Part shown: positions 38,850 to 50,060 of the stretch, one piece after another
How positions within the stretch are numbered: the first letter of the stretch is position 1
Layout of the letters: every line of letters starts with the position of its first letter
Source: Candidatus Desulfopertinax cowenii
GTDB lineage: Bacteria > Bacillota > Desulfotomaculia > Desulfotomaculales > Desulforudaceae
Assembly (NCBI GenBank): GCA_001899445.1
Contig: MPOA01000006.1
Location: forward strand, 682,001-746,000
Direction: 5' to 3'
DNA length: 64,000 bases
Position numbers and translations under genes: made by a program
Notes under the pieces: model-generated
What the model was told of the DNA's origin: nothing
Databases searched by the model: none
Seen by the model: the letters and a program-made list of their open reading frames with translations, nothing else

Positions 38850-39022
38850 TACCACCCCCCCTTCACTGAGACAACGTCGGGACGGAAGAAAAAGTTACAC
38901 CCCATTTTATCATTTCGCGGCCGCCCGGAGCGGGAAAGTGCGCCGCCGCTACGAACCGCTTGTTTTTCGGCATACGGTGTTGTAAGATTAGAGGCGAGAA
39001 ATGGCAGGCGGAGGCGCAAAAC

Positions 39023-39907
39023 ATGGTTGAAAAAGGTACATGGACGGTTAAGAAGGGCTTGGCCGAGATGCTCAAGGGCGGCGTGATCATGGACGTGACC
39101 ACCCCAGAGCAGGCCAGGATCGCCGAGGCCGCCGGGGCGTGCGCCGTCATGGCCTTGGAGCGGGTGCCGGCCGATATCCGGGCGGCCGGCGGGATCGCGC
39201 GAATGGCCGATCCCACCGTGATCCAGCGGATCATGGACGCGGTTACCATCCCGGTTATGGCCAAGGTCCGGATCGGTCACTTCGTGGAAGCGCAAATCCT
39301 CGAGGCGCTGGGCGTGGACTATATCGACGAGAGCGAGGTGCTTACCCCGGCGGACGAGCAGTACCACATCAACAAGCACCTCTTCAAGGTGCCCTTCGTG
39401 TGCGGGGCCCGGAACCTGGGCGAAGCCCTGCGGCGGATCGCCGAAGGCGCGGCTATGATCCGCACCAAGGGCGAGCCGGGGACCGGCAACGTGGTGGAAG
39501 CGGTCCGGCACATGCGGATGGTGAACGAGGGAATCCGCCGGGTACAAGCGGCGCCGCGCGAGGAGCTGGTTGCCCTGGCCAGGGAAATGGGCGCACCTTA
39601 CGAGCTGGTGCTGCAGGTGGCCGAGCTGGGCCGGCTGCCGGTGGTGAACTTCGCGGCCGGCGGGATCGCCACCCCGGCGGACGCGGCGCTGATGATGCAG
39701 CTGGGCTGCGACGGAATTTTTGTCGGATCCGGCATTTTCAAGTCGAAGAACCCCGAGGCCCGGGCCAAGGCCATCGTGACCGCTACTACCCACTATAACG
39801 ACCCCCAGATCCTGGCTGAGATTTCCTGCGATCTGGGCGAGGCCATGCGGGGCCTGGAAATCAGCACTATTCCCGACCACGAGCGGATGCAGGAGCGCGG
39901 TTGGTAG
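39023..39907 (+). CDS. pdxS: Pyridoxal 5'-phosphate synthase subunit PdxS
   Basis: PdxS builds PLP from ribose 5-phosphate, glyceraldehyde 3-phosphate and ammonia. The 294 residues form a TIM barrel: [20 protein letters not shown] near residue 19, the catalytic lysine region [14 protein letters not shown] near 77, [16 protein letters not shown] near 150, and [14 protein letters not shown] near 230. The start is ATG 39023 with GGAGG eight bases upstream. It overlaps pdxT by seven bases. The PLP made would serve the aminotransferase and decarboxylase encoded nearby. Confidence 0.96.
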
Positions 39908-40479
39908 TGGTTACCGTCGGGATTCTGGCGCTCCAGGGTGCCTTCCTGGAACACGCGCGGTCGGTCGCGGCTTGCGGTGGCCGCCCGGTCGAGATCCGCA
40001 AGCCCGAGCAGCTGGACGACTGCCGGGCGCTGATCATCCCCGGTGGGGAGTCCACTGCCATCGGGAAACTGATGGACCAGTTCGGGTTGTTTGATGCGGT
40101 ACGCCGGTTTGGGGCCGACGGGCGGCCGATATTCGGCACCTGCGCCGGTATGGTCCTGCTGGCCAGGGAGATTGAGGGTTTACAGCAGCCCCGCCTGGGG
40201 CTCATGAACATCGCGGTAAAGCGCAACGCCTTCGGCCGCCAGGTGGACAGTTTCGAGGCCGACATCTACGTTCCGGTGCTGGGGGAGGCGCCGGTACGGG
40301 GCGTGTTTATCCGGGCGCCGTACGTGACGGCGGTGGGCCGGGGGGTGGAAACGCTGGCCAGTTTTGACGGTAAAGTGGTGTTGGTTCGCCAGGGCAGGCT
40401 TCTGGCCGGGGCTTTTCATCCCGAACTGACCGCGGATACCCGGTTGCACCGGTACTTCCTGAGTTTCCTGGACGAGTAA
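39901..40479 (+). CDS. pdxT: Pyridoxal 5'-phosphate synthase glutaminase PdxT
   Basis: PdxT hydrolyses glutamine and channels ammonia to PdxS. The 192-residue class-I glutaminase shows [28 protein letters not shown] near residue 45, the nucleophile in [11 protein letters not shown] near 79, and the His/Glu pair in FHPELT near 172. The start may be TTG 39901 or GTG 39907. It forms an operon with pdxS. Confidence 0.95.
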
Positions 40480-40584: not shown

Positions 40585-40613
40585 TTGCCTTCAATCGGCC
40601 TTTGTATTAGAAT
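40585..40613 (+). promoter_or_regulatory. Promoter of the serine operon T-box leader
   Basis: TTGCCT (40585-40590) and TAGAAT (40608-40613) with exactly 17 bases between lie just upstream of the T-box leader. Confidence 0.55.
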
Positions 40614-40635: not shown

Positions 40636-40925
40636 AAACCGCGCTAAGTCGTTCCGTACCAGTGAAAACCCGATGCCGGGGAATAGTAGCCGTGGATCCG
40701 AAGGCAGAGAGCCGGTGGGTGGTGCGAACCGGCCGGGCAAGCGGTGAATTCCCCCCCGTAGGGGTCCCGCCGAGAACGTAGGCGGGAACGGTGTGCGCCG
40801 TTAACCGCATTCGAGTGGGCCGCGTCCCGGTGGCGCCGGCCAAAAAGGGTGGCAACGCGGGAGCAAACCTCTCGTCCCTTGTGGTGGGGGGCGGGGGGTT
40901 TCCCAATTTTAAAAGAAAAGGAGAG
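40636..40925 (+). ncRNA. T-box riboswitch leader, predicted to sense tRNA-Ser
   Basis: Stem I features are present: a GGGAATAGTAG loop near 40678, AGAGAGCCGGTGGGTGGTG near 40706, and a specifier loop in which TCC (serine) can be read at 40765-40767. The antiterminator core AGGGTGGCAACGCGG is at 40846-40860, followed by an alternative stem ending CTCTCGTCCC. The TGGC bulge of the core complements GCCA, the 3' end of the serine tRNAs here (discriminator G). A tRNA-Ser(GGA) lies at 49971. Uncharged tRNA-Ser would favour read-through into the aminotransferase-serA genes. The specifier assignment is by motif only. Confidence 0.85.
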
Positions 40926-40936
40926 AAAGGGTCTCA

Positions 40937-42088
40937 ATGTCGAGAAAACTGCGCTTGATGATTCCGGGGCCCACGCCGCTCCCGCCCCAGGTGAGCGAAG
41001 CGCTGGCTCGTCCGATGGTTGGCCACCGCAGCAAGGGCTTCGCGGAGCTGACCGCCCGGCTGCACGGGAAGCTGCAGCAGGTCATGCAGACCAATAACGA
41101 AGTGATCATCCTCACCAGCTCTGGTACCGGCGGGCTGGAAGCGGCCGTCGCCAATACGGTCAACCCCGGCGACAAGGTGCTGGCGCTGGTGGCCGGCAAG
41201 TTCGGCGAGCGTTTCCGGGACCTGGCCCGGGTGTACGGGGCCGAGGTGGTGGAGCTGCACTTCCCCTGGGGGCGGCCGGTGGACCTGGACGCCGTGGAGA
41301 GTGAGCTGCGCCGGCACCCGGATCTCAAGGTGATCCTGGCTACCCATAACGAGACCTCGACCGGCGTGGTGCACGACATCCGGGGCCTGGGTGCCCTGGC
41401 CGCCAAGCACGGGGCGCTCCTGGCGGTGGACGCCGTCAGCGGCCTGGGCGGCATCGACCTGCCCGCCGACGCCTGGGGGGTGGACATCCTGGTCACTGCC
41501 TCCCAAAAGGCGCTGATGACTCCGCCCGGCCTGGCTATGATCAGCCTGAGCGAGAAGGCCTGGGCCCAGGCCAACAAGTGCCGCGCACCCCGTTACTACT
41601 TCAGCCTGCCGGCGGCCAAAAAGGCGCTGGCCAAGTGGAATACCGCTTATACACCCGCCGTCTCCCTCTTCTTCGGACTGGAGGCGGCGCTGGACCTGAT
41701 GCTGGAGGAAGGACTGGCCAAGGTGTTTGCCCGGCACCGGCTGCTGGCCCGGGCAACCCGGGAGGGGATCAAGGCGCTGGGGCTGGAACTGTTGCCGCCG
41801 GAAGACGTGGCCTCCCCGGTGGTGACCGCCGTGAAGAGTCCGGCGGGTATCCCGGCCGAGAGCTTGCGCAAAATCCTGGCGGACAAGTACGGTGTGTTAT
41901 TTGCGGGCGGCCAGGCCGAGCTGAAAGGGAAGATCTTCCGCATCGCCCACATGGGCTACGTGGATCAGCTGGACGTGATCACTGCCCTTGGAGCCCTGGA
42001 GTTGGCCCTAAACGAAATCGGGCACCGAGTTGACTTCGGGGGCGGCGTGGCCGCGGCCCAACGGGTGTTTCAGGGAGGTGCTGAATAG
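40937..42088 (+). CDS. Class V aminotransferase (serine-glyoxylate / alanine-glyoxylate type)
   Basis: A PLP-dependent aminotransferase of 383 residues. It opens LRLMIPGPTPLPPQVSEALA; a LTSSGTGGLEAAV segment near residue 58 and the PLP lysine in TASQKALMTPPGLA near 193 are clear. It is followed by serA with a 1-base overlap and preceded by a serine T-box, so it probably serves as the phosphohydroxypyruvate aminotransferase in serine synthesis in place of SerC. Glyoxylate or pyruvate as amino acceptor cannot be excluded. Confidence 0.88.
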   Translation: MSRKLRLMIPGPTPLPPQVSEALARPMVGHRSKGFAELTARLHGKLQQVMQTNNEVIILTSSGTGGLEAAVANTVNPGDKVLALVAGKFGERFRDLARVYGAEVVELHFPWGRPVDLDAVESELRRHPDLKVILATHNETSTGVVHDIRGLGALAAKHGALLAVDAVSGLGGIDLPADAWGVDILVTASQKALMTPPGLAMISLSEKAWAQANKCRAPRYYFSLPAAKKALAKWNTAYTPAVSLFFGLEAALDLMLEEGLAKVFARHRLLARATREGIKALGLELLPPEDVASPVVTAVKSPAGIPAESLRKILADKYGVLFAGGQAELKGKIFRIAHMGYVDQLDVITALGALELALNEIGHRVDFGGGVAAAQRVFQGGAE

Positions 42089-43668
42089 TGAAGGTACTGG
42101 TGATGGACAACGTGGCGCAAGAGGGAGTGGATGTCCTCCGGCAGGCGCAGGTGGAGGCCGAGGTCCGGAGCAAGCTGACCGAGGACGAACTCCTGGAGAT
42201 TATTCCGCAGTTTGACGGGATCATCGTCCGAAGCGCCACCAAAGTGACCGCGAAGGTGATCGAACGGGGTACCAACCTGAAGGTGATCGGCCGCGCCGGG
42301 GTGGGGGTGGACAACATCGACGTCCCGGCAGCTACCGCGAAGGGGATCATCGTGGTGAACGCTCCGGACGGAAACACCATCGCCGCCACCGAGCATACCA
42401 TGGCCCTGATGCTGTCGCTGGCCCGGAACGTGCCCCAGGCCGACGCCCGCCTGAAGTCCGGGGTGTGGGACAAGAAGGCCTTCGTGGGCGTAGAGCTGCG
42501 CAACAAGTGCCTGGGCGTTCTCGGCCTGGGGCGGATTGGCAGCGGCGTGGCCCGCCGGGCTTACGCCATGGAGATGGACGTGGTGGCCTACGATCCGTAT
42601 ATTAGCGAGGGCCGGGCCCGGGAACTGGGCGTTACCCTGCTGCCGCTGGAGGAAGTCTTCCGGCGGGCGGATTTCCTGACCATTCATATGCCGCTGACCA
42701 AGGAAACCCGCCACCTGCTGGACGAACGGGCATTTTCCTTGATGAAGAATGGCGTCCGGATTATCAACTGCGCCCGGGGCGGGATCGTGGACGAGGAGGC
42801 GCTGTACCGCGCCTTGACCTCCGGCAAGGTGGCCGGCGCGGCCCTGGACGTGTTCGAGGTAGAACCCCAGACCGAAAGCCCGCTTTTCAAGTTGCCCAAC
42901 TTCATTGCCACACCCCATTTGGGAGCGTCTACCCGGGAGGCCCAGGTCAGCGTGGCCGTGGACGTGGCGGAGGAGGTCATCGCCGTCCTTAAGGACAAGC
43001 TGGTGAAGAACGCGGTGAACATTCCTTCGATCAAGCCCGACGTGCTCAAGGACATCGGGCCGTACCTGGGTTTGGCCGAGAAGCTCGGTCGGTTTCACGC
43101 CCAGCTTCTGCTGGGGCGGCTGAACCAGATCGAGATCACTTACAGCGGCGAATTGGCCGCCTTCAAACAGGTGGAGCCCCTGACCACGGCGCTGGTGAAG
43201 GGCATCCTCGATAACATCCTGCAGGAGCGTGTAAACTACGTTAACGCGCTGCTGATTGCCAAGAACCGAGGCATCGAAATCAGCCAGACCAAGTCCGGTC
43301 GGGCTGAGGACTATACCGGCCTGATGACCGTCAAGGTGATCTCCAGCGAGGGCGAGCACGAGCTGGCCGGTACCCTGTTCCGGGGTGATAACCCCCGGGT
43401 GGTGTTCATCGACGGCTACCGGGTAGATGCCGTCCCCGAGGGGCACATGCTGATTATCCCGCACATCGACAAGCCGCGGATCATCGGGGCGGTGGGCACC
43501 CTGATCGGGCAGCACAACGTGAACATCGCGGCCATGCAGGTGGGGCGCAAGGTGATCGGGGGCCGGGCGGTGATGGTGTTGATGGTGGACAGCCCGGTGC
43601 CGCCAGAAACCCTCGAAGAGATTGCCAAGGTGGACGGCGTGCTGGGGGTCCGGATGGTCAGCCTGTAA
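42088..43668 (+). CDS. serA: D-3-phosphoglycerate dehydrogenase
   Basis: SerA oxidises 3-phosphoglycerate to phosphohydroxypyruvate with NAD, the first step of serine synthesis. The 526-residue long form has the catalytic and NAD domains (GRAGVGVDNIDVPAAT near residue 72, LGLGRIGSGVARRA near 145, CARGGIVDEEAL near 230, and PHLGASTREAQ with the catalytic His near 280). An intervening domain and a C-terminal ACT domain (LIIPHIDKPRIIGAVG) follow, which usually allows serine feedback. The GTG start overlaps the previous stop by one base. Confidence 0.95.
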   Translation: MKVLVMDNVAQEGVDVLRQAQVEAEVRSKLTEDELLEIIPQFDGIIVRSATKVTAKVIERGTNLKVIGRAGVGVDNIDVPAATAKGIIVVNAPDGNTIAATEHTMALMLSLARNVPQADARLKSGVWDKKAFVGVELRNKCLGVLGLGRIGSGVARRAYAMEMDVVAYDPYISEGRARELGVTLLPLEEVFRRADFLTIHMPLTKETRHLLDERAFSLMKNGVRIINCARGGIVDEEALYRALTSGKVAGAALDVFEVEPQTESPLFKLPNFIATPHLGASTREAQVSVAVDVAEEVIAVLKDKLVKNAVNIPSIKPDVLKDIGPYLGLAEKLGRFHAQLLLGRLNQIEITYSGELAAFKQVEPLTTALVKGILDNILQERVNYVNALLIAKNRGIEISQTKSGRAEDYTGLMTVKVISSEGEHELAGTLFRGDNPRVVFIDGYRVDAVPEGHMLIIPHIDKPRIIGAVGTLIGQHNVNIAAMQVGRKVIGGRAVMVLMVDSPVPPETLEEIAKVDGVLGVRMVSL

Positions 43669-43691: not shown

Positions 43692-44972
<1,281 letters not shown>

Positions 44973-45061: not shown

Positions 45062-45271
45062 ATGGCAGAAGTGGTTGTCTCCAGTAAGTACCAAATAGTC
45101 CTCCCGGTTGAGATACGTAAGTCATTGGGGATCAAGAAGGGACAACGGCTGCACCTTCTGGTGGAAAACGGGAGCATCAGGTTGATTCCGAGCCGCCCTC
45201 TTCCTGAAATGCGGGGTTACTTGCGTGGGATGGATACAAATATAGAGCGAGATGAGGAGGAAAGGTTTTGA
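45062..45271 (+). CDS. vapB: AbrB/MazE-fold antitoxin (VapB type)
   Basis: A 69-residue protein with a SpoVT-AbrB swapped-hairpin DNA-binding domain (VVVSSKYQIVLPVEIRKSLG, then KKGQRLHLLVENGSIRLIP) and a short acidic C-terminal region for toxin binding. It overlaps the PIN toxin gene by four bases. Expected to neutralise the toxin and repress the operon. AGGAGG precedes ATG 45062. The pair is distinctly AT-richer than its surroundings, a sign of acquisition. Confidence 0.82.
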   Translation: MAEVVVSSKYQIVLPVEIRKSLGIKKGQRLHLLVENGSIRLIPSRPLPEMRGYLRGMDTNIERDEEERF

Positions 45272-45645
45272 TTCTGGTAGACTCATGCGGGTGGCTTGAA
45301 TTTCTCGCCGACGGTCCGCTTGCAGAAGAGTACGCCCCTTATTTTAATAAACCGGAGGAGATAATTACACCGGCTATTGTAATTTATGAAGTGACAAAAA
45401 AGATTTGGCGAGAACAAGGTAAAGAAAAGGCCTTTCTTATTGCAGCCCAAATGCAGCAGACAAAATTGGTTCCTTTTGATACCCGCCTAGCACTGGCTGC
45501 TGCTGATGTTTCTCTACGCTGGAACTTACCTATGGCCGATGCCATTATTTTTGCTACTGGCGCGGAATGTGGCGGCAAGGTGGTTACCAGCGATCACCAC
45601 TTTAAAGAGTTGCCAGGAGTGATCTTTATAGAAACCCGCTCCTGA
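45268..45645 (+). CDS. vapC: PIN-domain ribonuclease toxin (VapC type)
   Basis: A 125-residue PIN domain. The acidic residues are visible: Asp in LVDSCGWLEFL (residue 5), Glu in TPAIVIYEVTKKI near 42, Asp in MADAIIFA near 91, and a SDHHF segment near 110. It cleaves RNA by family knowledge; the target is unknown. TTG start overlapping the antitoxin gene by four bases. A GC-rich hairpin follows. Confidence 0.83.
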   Translation: MILVDSCGWLEFLADGPLAEEYAPYFNKPEEIITPAIVIYEVTKKIWREQGKEKAFLIAAQMQQTKLVPFDTRLALAAADVSLRWNLPMADAIIFATGAECGGKVVTSDHHFKELPGVIFIETRS

Positions 45646-45682: not shown

Positions 45683-45711
45683 TTGACACTGTTAACCCGA
45701 TATGCTATAGT
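45683..45711 (+). promoter_or_regulatory. Promoter of the tRNA cluster
   Basis: TTGACA (45683-45688), 17 bases, TATAGT (45706-45711); the first tRNA starts 24 bases later. Confidence 0.75.
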
Positions 45712-45734: not shown

Positions 45735-45825
45735 GGAGGGGTGTCCGAGTGGTTTAAGGAGGCGGTCTTGAAAACCGTTGAACCCGAGAGTGGTTCCGTG
45801 GGTTCGAATCCCACCCCCTCCGCCA
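45735..45825 (+). tRNA. tRNA-Ser(TGA)
   Basis: Acceptor stem GGAGGGG pairs with CCCCTCC, followed by G and encoded CCA. The anticodon loop CTTGAAA gives TGA for UCA codons. A long variable arm, typical of serine tRNA, and a GGTTCGAATCC T-loop are present. Confidence 0.95.
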
Positions 45826-45920: not shown

Positions 45921-46015
45921 GGAGAGATGGCCGAGCAGGTCGAAGGCGCTCGCCTGCTAAGCGAGTAGATGGGTGAATGCCTGTCTCGAGGGTTCGAATC
46001 CCTCTCTCTCCGCCA
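45921..46015 (+). tRNA. tRNA-Ser(GCT)
   Basis: Acceptor GGAGAGA with TCTCTCC, discriminator G and encoded CCA. The anticodon loop CTGCTAA gives GCT for AGC/AGU codons. Long variable arm present. Confidence 0.95.
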
Positions 46016-46780: not shown

Positions 46781-46877
46781 GGAGAGATGGCTGAGTCTGG
46801 TTGAAGGCGCTCGACTCGAAATCGAGTAGGCAGGCCAAAAACCTGCCTCGTGGGTTCGAATCCCACTCTCTCCGCCA
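46781..46877 (+). tRNA. tRNA-Ser(CGA)
   Basis: Acceptor GGAGAGA with TCTCTCC, discriminator G, encoded CCA; the anticodon loop CTCGAAA gives CGA for UCG codons. It begins one base after the tadA stop, so it is likely cut from a tadA-containing transcript. Confidence 0.95.
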
Positions 46878-49970: not shown

Positions 49971-50060
49971 GGAGAGATGGCCGAGTGGATGAAGGCGCAC
50001 GCCTGGAGAGCGTGTGGGCGGGTAACCGCCTCGTGGGTTCGAATCCCACTCTCTCCGCCA
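49971..50060 (+). tRNA. tRNA-Ser(GGA)
   Basis: Acceptor GGAGAGA with TCTCTCC, discriminator G and encoded CCA. The anticodon loop CTGGAGA gives GGA for UCC/UCU codons. This isoacceptor matches the TCC specifier and GCCA-pairing bulge predicted in the T-box at 40636-40925. Confidence 0.95.

Follow-up and report, generated by a model that had tools for sequence, protein, structure and literature searches.

The stretch of DNA analyzed here, called the window, comprises 64,000 nucleotides from Candidatus Desulfopertinax cowenii (Bacillota; Desulfotomaculia; Desulforudaceae; assembly GCA_001899445.1, contig MPOA01000006.1, positions 682,001 to 746,000 of the forward strand), and carries, on the plus strand like every window feature given coordinates as part of the leader, operon and tRNA set below, a T-box leader (40664–40882, stem I to antiterminator, RF00230) followed by three genes. 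The first (40937–42088) encodes a class V aminotransferase, proposed to be a phosphoserine aminotransferase (PF00266, 104.6 bits against a cut-off of 21.5); the second, serA (42088–43668), encodes phosphoglycerate dehydrogenase with an ACT domain (TIGR01327, 704 bits; PF01842), its GTG start sharing one base with the stop codon of the aminotransferase gene; and the third, serS (43695–44972), encodes seryl-tRNA synthetase (TIGR00414, 570.6 bits). By the equivalog matches of serA and serS, the leader precedes genes for serine synthesis and for seryl-tRNA synthetase. serS is followed within 6 kb by four tRNA-Ser genes, with anticodons TGA (45735–45825), GCT (45921–46015), CGA (46781–46877), and GGA (49971–50060), the last being the predicted ligand. 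We consider that the window carries a transcription-attenuating serine T-box answering to uncharged tRNA-Ser(GGA), with a probability of about 0.92. Judged from its sequence, the element is an ordinary, intact-looking serine T-box of known type, and the window by itself offers a tidy annotation of such a T-box, its operon, and nearby tRNA-Ser genes in a Desulforudis-like bacterium, and little more; the part deserving specialist attention is a change of specifier among its relatives.

With the RF00230 covariance model, 40664–40882 is a full-length match scoring 105.9 bits (E = 2.3e-22), above the gathering score of 93. A reading made earlier from the sequence alone (hereafter the sequence-only reading) had described a T-box leader with an AGAGAG motif and the core AGGGTGGCAACGCGG; both are present as described, the core of the leader reading AGGGTGGCAACGCGG, and the Rfam search that it proposed as a check thus matches the whole model above the gathering score. 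The start that it gave, 40636, corresponds to no natural boundary, the Rfam element beginning at 40664 and a probable promoter, TTGCCT-17-TAGAAT, lying at 40585–40613 (9/12 in a consensus scan, which lists five sites in the leader region versus 1.8 in shuffles). All nine of the UCC leaders inspected have a sequence at this place that fits the loose pattern TTGNNN-N16-18-TANNNT. In stem I, the lower helix is formed by GGGG (40678–40681) and CCCC (40754–40757), a pairing followed across 86 leaders of relatives, and it bounds a specifier loop with the 5′ side AAUAGUA (40682–40688; sequence and decode) and the 3′ side GAAUUCCC (40746–40753; decode, relatives, and pairing), within which the codon UCC (serine; read by tRNA-Ser(GGA)) occupies 40750–40752. 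The AGAGAG motif (40706–40711) is aligned in RF00230, and stem III is placed approximately at 40817–40841 by the same alignment. The antiterminator helices (40845–40881), whose fold agrees with the RF00230 structure, enclose the 7-nt bulge UGGCAAC, in which UGGC (40850–40853; sequence and RF00230) is complementary to the GCCA of tRNA-Ser, and a competing terminator hairpin of 15 pairs folds at 40866–40900.

The relatives were drawn from a survey of 113 genomes of the class for homologues of the aminotransferase at E ≤ 1e-60, which yielded a set of 98 copies from 97 of the 98 homologue-bearing genomes, with G083 (a partial match at a contig edge) and L010 (a duplicate of G044) left out. A relaxed version of the T-box core pattern is found at 86 of the 98 copies, and a stricter one requiring A before GGGTGG at 70. 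Across the 86 leaders, the lower helix of stem I is paired in 85 or 86 at each of its four positions, and five positions of the upper helix are paired in 63 to 86, with shuffled means of 33 to 69; in the variable columns flanking the specifier loop, pairing is more frequent than the average for shuffled partners at each position, although the 71 pairs at upper helix position 1 lie within the shuffled range (maximum 72), and the columns were chosen partly by pairing, a choice that favors this result. The sequence-only reading had named a covariance fold placing another codon in the specifier loop as what would speak against it; the helices bounding the loop covary, and its codon, TCC in the DNA, is kept in 27/27 UCC-type leaders of the class.

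These features suggest a mechanism in which uncharged tRNA-Ser(GGA) would pair with the leader at two places, by its anticodon at the UCC of stem I and by its GCCA end at the UGGC bulge. Such pairing would stabilize the antiterminator against the terminator at 40866–40900 and allow RNA polymerase to proceed through the class V aminotransferase gene and serA, and probably through serS as well; with charged tRNA-Ser, no pairing at the bulge would be possible, and transcription would stop. The two competing structures fold from overlapping sequence and are therefore mutually exclusive. The terminator folds into a strong hairpin (−23.4 kcal/mol, z −3.04), and the antiterminator fold reaches −13.1 kcal/mol with a z of −0.97, many shuffles being as good. 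Several features weigh against an attenuator of this kind: the terminator tail, UUUCCCAAUUUU, makes a poor U run; a simple terminator scan of the leader region did not list the hairpin at 40866–40900; the 3′ part of the bulge (40854–40856) is AAC rather than the usual ACC, which stabilizes the discriminator structure according to PMC7583486; the specifier is followed by C instead of the customary purine (whose role is described in the same paper); and the single-strand fold of stem I (40664–40775) lacks the T-box stem I shape and does not outdo shuffles (z 0.21). Because the plain fold fails to give that shape, the structure of stem I is supported by the covariance model and by comparison with relatives.

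The tail and the unlisted terminator are also what would be expected if the T-box were partly decayed, attenuating weakly while control is exerted mainly at another step such as translation. Loss does happen in the class, 12 of the 98 copies having no core by the pattern, eight of them in family f2 and one (L060) in the family of the window. Against decay, however, stand the strength of the hairpin and an element that is complete in its parts and exceeds the Rfam gathering score, and we regard a decayed state of the window leader as improbable. Six of the core-less copies (L077, L079, L091, L118, L124, and L125) keep a terminator-like hairpin, CGTCCC/GGG followed by a T run, and give the impression of a T-box deletion that spared the terminator.

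The serine specificity of the window T-box has independent support from three sides: the register of UCC in relatives, the fit between the UGGC bulge and G73, and the downstream serine genes. The specifier loop reads GAA-U-UCC-C and so also contains an overlapping UUC. The triplet conserved at a constant position beside the lower helix of stem I was taken as the specifier, since automatic decoding slipped by one base in some leaders to give TTC, TGG, AGG, or CGG; in four leaders (L071, L102, L145, and L151), the loops were set by hand. The position preceding UCC differs among the 27 UCC leaders of the class: 17 have U, five A, and two G, and in three GAA runs straight into UCC. Because UCC is kept while the preceding base varies, UCC rather than UUC is taken as the specifier. 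All four tRNA-Ser genes of the window have G73 and end in GCCA, in line with the GCCA 3′ end that the sequence-only reading ascribed to the serine tRNAs encoded nearby, whereas tRNA-Phe has A73 and would need UGGU. Nearest-neighbor sums on the window leader, which cover specifier and bulge pairing and ignore terminal and tertiary effects, modifications, and loop geometry, are −14.5 kcal/mol for tRNA-Ser(GGA) versus −8.7 kcal/mol for tRNA-Phe read as UUC. A UUC specifier one base 5′ of UCC, by which the leader would sense tRNA-Phe, is thus rejected as highly improbable despite the GAA-UUC of the window, the U in 17/27 leaders, and the automatic decode of TTC in leaders with a GGGGA/TCCCC lower helix, given that in 10 of the 27 leaders GAA is separated from UCC by A or G or adjoins it directly, that UUC is not kept in relatives, that A73 misfits UGGC, and that the downstream genes serve serine.

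The agreement between specifier and bulge extends to other T-boxes. According to TBDB, UGGN usually matches the discriminator base, with a Trp wobble as the exception (PMC7778990). Another T-box in the source genome combines the specifier ACC with the bulge UGGA, and tRNA-Thr has U73; in relatives, T-boxes in the same register read CUC/UGGU for Leu, AUC/UGGU for Ile, ACC/UGGA for Thr, and AUG/UGGU for Met, and, read by eye, AAC/UGGC for Asn. One control T-box (L277), with a low-scoring decode, reads GAAGGGG with UGGU and would break the rule. The controls comprise decodable cores, many cores not being decodable, and their downstream gene was identified for glyQ only. In the source genome, two places (G000:C6:422279-422658 and 94596-94967; L005, L006, L008, and L009) show a full T-box followed some 50–110 bases on by a second antiterminator-like core.

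The aminotransferase falls below every NCBIfam equivalog cut-off among the matches listed, the best being BhcA (342.5 versus 650 bits), and SerC models give 24–52 bits (TIGR01364, 24.0 versus a cut-off of 443.6). A TIGR01364 search of the genome returned no SerC match besides the aminotransferase itself (22.6 bits). Among the solved chains found, the nearest are pyridoxamine/aspartate, serine-glyoxylate, and alanine-glyoxylate aminotransferases. In Methanocaldococcus, a class V phosphoserine aminotransferase of the alanine/serine-glyoxylate type has been proposed as a replacement for SerC. It is proposed that the enzyme of the window likewise replaces SerC and would act on phosphohydroxypyruvate, which fits the absence of another SerC-model match and the adjacency of serA. 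Such a pathway, called atypical in the sequence-only reading, is not unusual in this group, a homologue being present in 98/113 genomes of the class; serA adjoins the aminotransferase gene in 97 of the 98 copies, and serS is nearby in 88, several others being cut by contig ends. A tRNA-Ser gene occurs in 69 of the 97 fetched loci, and 167 of the 168 such genes end in GCCA, the remaining one having been called without CCA.

Since the gap between serA and serS in the window is 26 nt and no terminator was listed in it by the simple scan, co-regulation of serS with the aminotransferase–serA operon is plausible, and no T-box core that would serve serS separately occurs between serA and serS in any of 88 gaps (88/88). 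The spacing varies with the specifier of the leader, serS lying at least 75 nt 3′ of serA in 53/53 AGC or GGC loci measured and at most 60 nt in 8/26 UCC loci; in view of the wider spacing, serS may be under separate control in the AGC/GGC group.

All parts of the RF00230 model are matched by the window element, which differs from T-boxes in general in its bulge, UGGCAAC instead of UGGNACC. This form occurs in 27/27 UCC leaders of the class and in four of 12 outside it, whereas AGC and GGC leaders have ACC. The closest described counterpart is the serine T-box of serA in Paenibacillus polymyxa WLY78, for which specifier mutation, lacZ fusions, and qRT-PCR showed that it works by antitermination (PMC8002221). 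It resembles the window element in being serine-responsive, in standing before serA, and in having a serine specifier, but uses the specifier AGC and the bulge UGGU where the window has UCC and UGGC, and its serC is a separate gene, unlike the window operon, which is headed by the class V aminotransferase together with serA and serS. The UCC specifier itself is not new, having already been predicted in Clostridium acetobutylicum and C. tetani, as cited in the same paper (PMC8002221).

An even sample of 398 genomes of the phylum contains the aminotransferase homologue in 150 (E ≤ 1e-100). A T-box core precedes the homologous gene in 12 of 16 loci outside the class, and its bulge is UGGC in 11 and UGGU in one. 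Because these out-of-class cores read GAA-UCC in 12/12 cases, UCC is probably the older state of the specifier. Within the class, the 86 leaders divide into 27 with UCC, 13 with AGC, and 46 with GGC. The UCC leaders carry UGGC-AAC (27/27) and the AGC leaders UGGC-ACC (13/13), and the GGC leaders carry UGGC in 40 cases, UGGU in five, and UGGA in one (L067), which has the full glycine form. Leaders with GGC span six family-level groups (f4, f5, f12, f15, f16, and f18), and two loci of one genus, L070 and L078, differ in that one has AGC and the other GGC. On a quick maximum-likelihood tree of 97 aminotransferase sequences (L152, with a broken frame, was dropped), the minimum numbers of specifier changes are seven for GGC, five for UCC, and three for AGC, of which the starred branches force four, four, and two. 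Thus, in a set of homologous leaders, the specifier has moved among UCC, AGC, and GGC while the site for the tRNA end has stayed serine-like, and the 86 leaders constitute a natural experiment on the choice of tRNA by a T-box.

GGC is a glycine codon, and the tRNA-Gly(GCC) genes read in the class do not fit the bulges of 45 of the 46 GGC leaders. From 42 genomes, 49 complete genes of this kind (23 + 26) were read, and every one ends in TCCA and has U73; the first query used ended in TCCA and the second did not, and only genes similar to a query were sought, except in G094, where all 49 tRNA places were read. The genomes with such genes read include 38 of the 46 with GGC leaders, none having been read in G014, G032, G075, G078, G084, G085, G097, and G102. 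T-box cores near glyQ have UGGA in 27/27 cases (seven from 15 loci and 20 from 30 loci), one of them (L407) lying about 1.2 kb upstream. The GGC leaders are odd because the same genomes use UGGA at glyQ, yet 45 of the 46 keep a C or U that fits G73; measured as glycine T-boxes, they have the glycine specifier, and only 1/46 has the UGGA bulge that fits U73, so that as a group they fall short of a glycine T-box. A tRNA with both G73 and the anticodon GCC was rejected as the ligand, the only GCC sequence among the 49 tRNA places of G094 ending in TCCA; the other genomes were covered for genes similar to the queries.

The account of the GGC leaders that survives best, though we hold it with somewhat less than even confidence, is that they are ordinary T-boxes sensing serine through tRNA-Ser(GCU), which pairs with AGC by Watson–Crick pairs and with GGC through one first-position G·U, glycine being uninvolved. 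The first base of the specifier is A (13) or G (46) and never C or U in the 59 AGC and GGC leaders, and the bulge fits G73 in 58 of them. By the same nearest-neighbor sums, tRNA-Ser(GCU) scores −14.3 kcal/mol on both AGC/UGGC and GGC/UGGC, and tRNA-Gly(GCC) −8.8 and −12.1 kcal/mol, respectively; on GGC/UGGA, the order is reversed, with −10.9 for Ser(GCU) and −14.5 kcal/mol for Gly(GCC). On this crude energy scale, changing A to G leaves the score of serine intact and narrows the gap to glycine to about 2 kcal/mol. It sits less well with this account that G is commoner than A, although A makes the Watson–Crick pair, and that L067 combines GGC with UGGA.

A slightly less favored proposal, which we advance tentatively, is that the GGC leaders are hybrid T-boxes that would sense tRNA-Gly(GCC), a perfect match to GGC that misses the discriminator pair, through the specifier and tRNA-Ser through the bulge. 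A single A-to-G change in AGC would leave the binding of tRNA-Ser(GCU) almost as it was, through G·U, and add tRNA-Gly(GCC), so that the operon would answer to a shortage of serine or of glycine, the window keeping the older single-tRNA UCC form. The narrowed energy gap would suit a sensor of both tRNAs, but the sums are no less compatible with a plain serine T-box, serine by itself still having the best score. A dual response of this sort has been described before: the lysK T box of Bacillus cereus is induced by tRNA-Asn as well as by uncharged tRNA-Lys (PMC2916919). The tRNAs there are different ones, and the split proposed for the GGC leaders assigns glycine to the specifier and serine to the bulge. 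In the literature searched, no hybrid T-box for Ser and Gly came to light; the surveys of Vitreschak (2008) and Gutierrez-Preciado (2009) fell outside that search, and novelty is not claimed. If GGC leaders do answer to both tRNAs, anticodon and acceptor contacts would be tunable to different tRNAs, and serine supply would be tied directly to glycine shortage. Least favored, and in our view unlikely, is that the GGC leaders are glycine T-boxes in which the bulge mismatch with U73 is without consequence: GGC pairs perfectly with tRNA-Gly(GCC), and serine is the usual precursor of glycine, but the glyQ cores have UGGA throughout, and the C or U of 45/46 GGC leaders is unable to pair with U73.

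The surroundings of the operon in the window show a few further features. Directly 5′ of the T-box (38960–40479) lie pdxT (PF01174) and, by sequence, pdxS, and ends of pdxT are seen 5′ of the T-box in many relatives too; the aminotransferase uses pyridoxal phosphate as its cofactor. The stretch from serS to the tRNA-Ser genes holds, at 45063–45645, a PIN-domain toxin-like gene (PF01850), preceded by a small gene that resembles an AbrB-type antitoxin, as judged from its sequence only. A strong promoter-like element, TTGACA-17-TATAGT with TG before the second hexamer, stands at 45683–45711, just before tRNA-Ser(TGA). The tRNA-Arg(ACG) genes near serS (loci L056–L152) have the discriminator G in 52 cases and A in four, that of the window being A. 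Finally, a weak tRNA match of 33.2 bits in a relative (L328; G094:C1:1450227-1450300), called tRNA-Trp(CCA) by ARAGORN and disturbed in its 5′ half, is perhaps a decayed tRNA copy.

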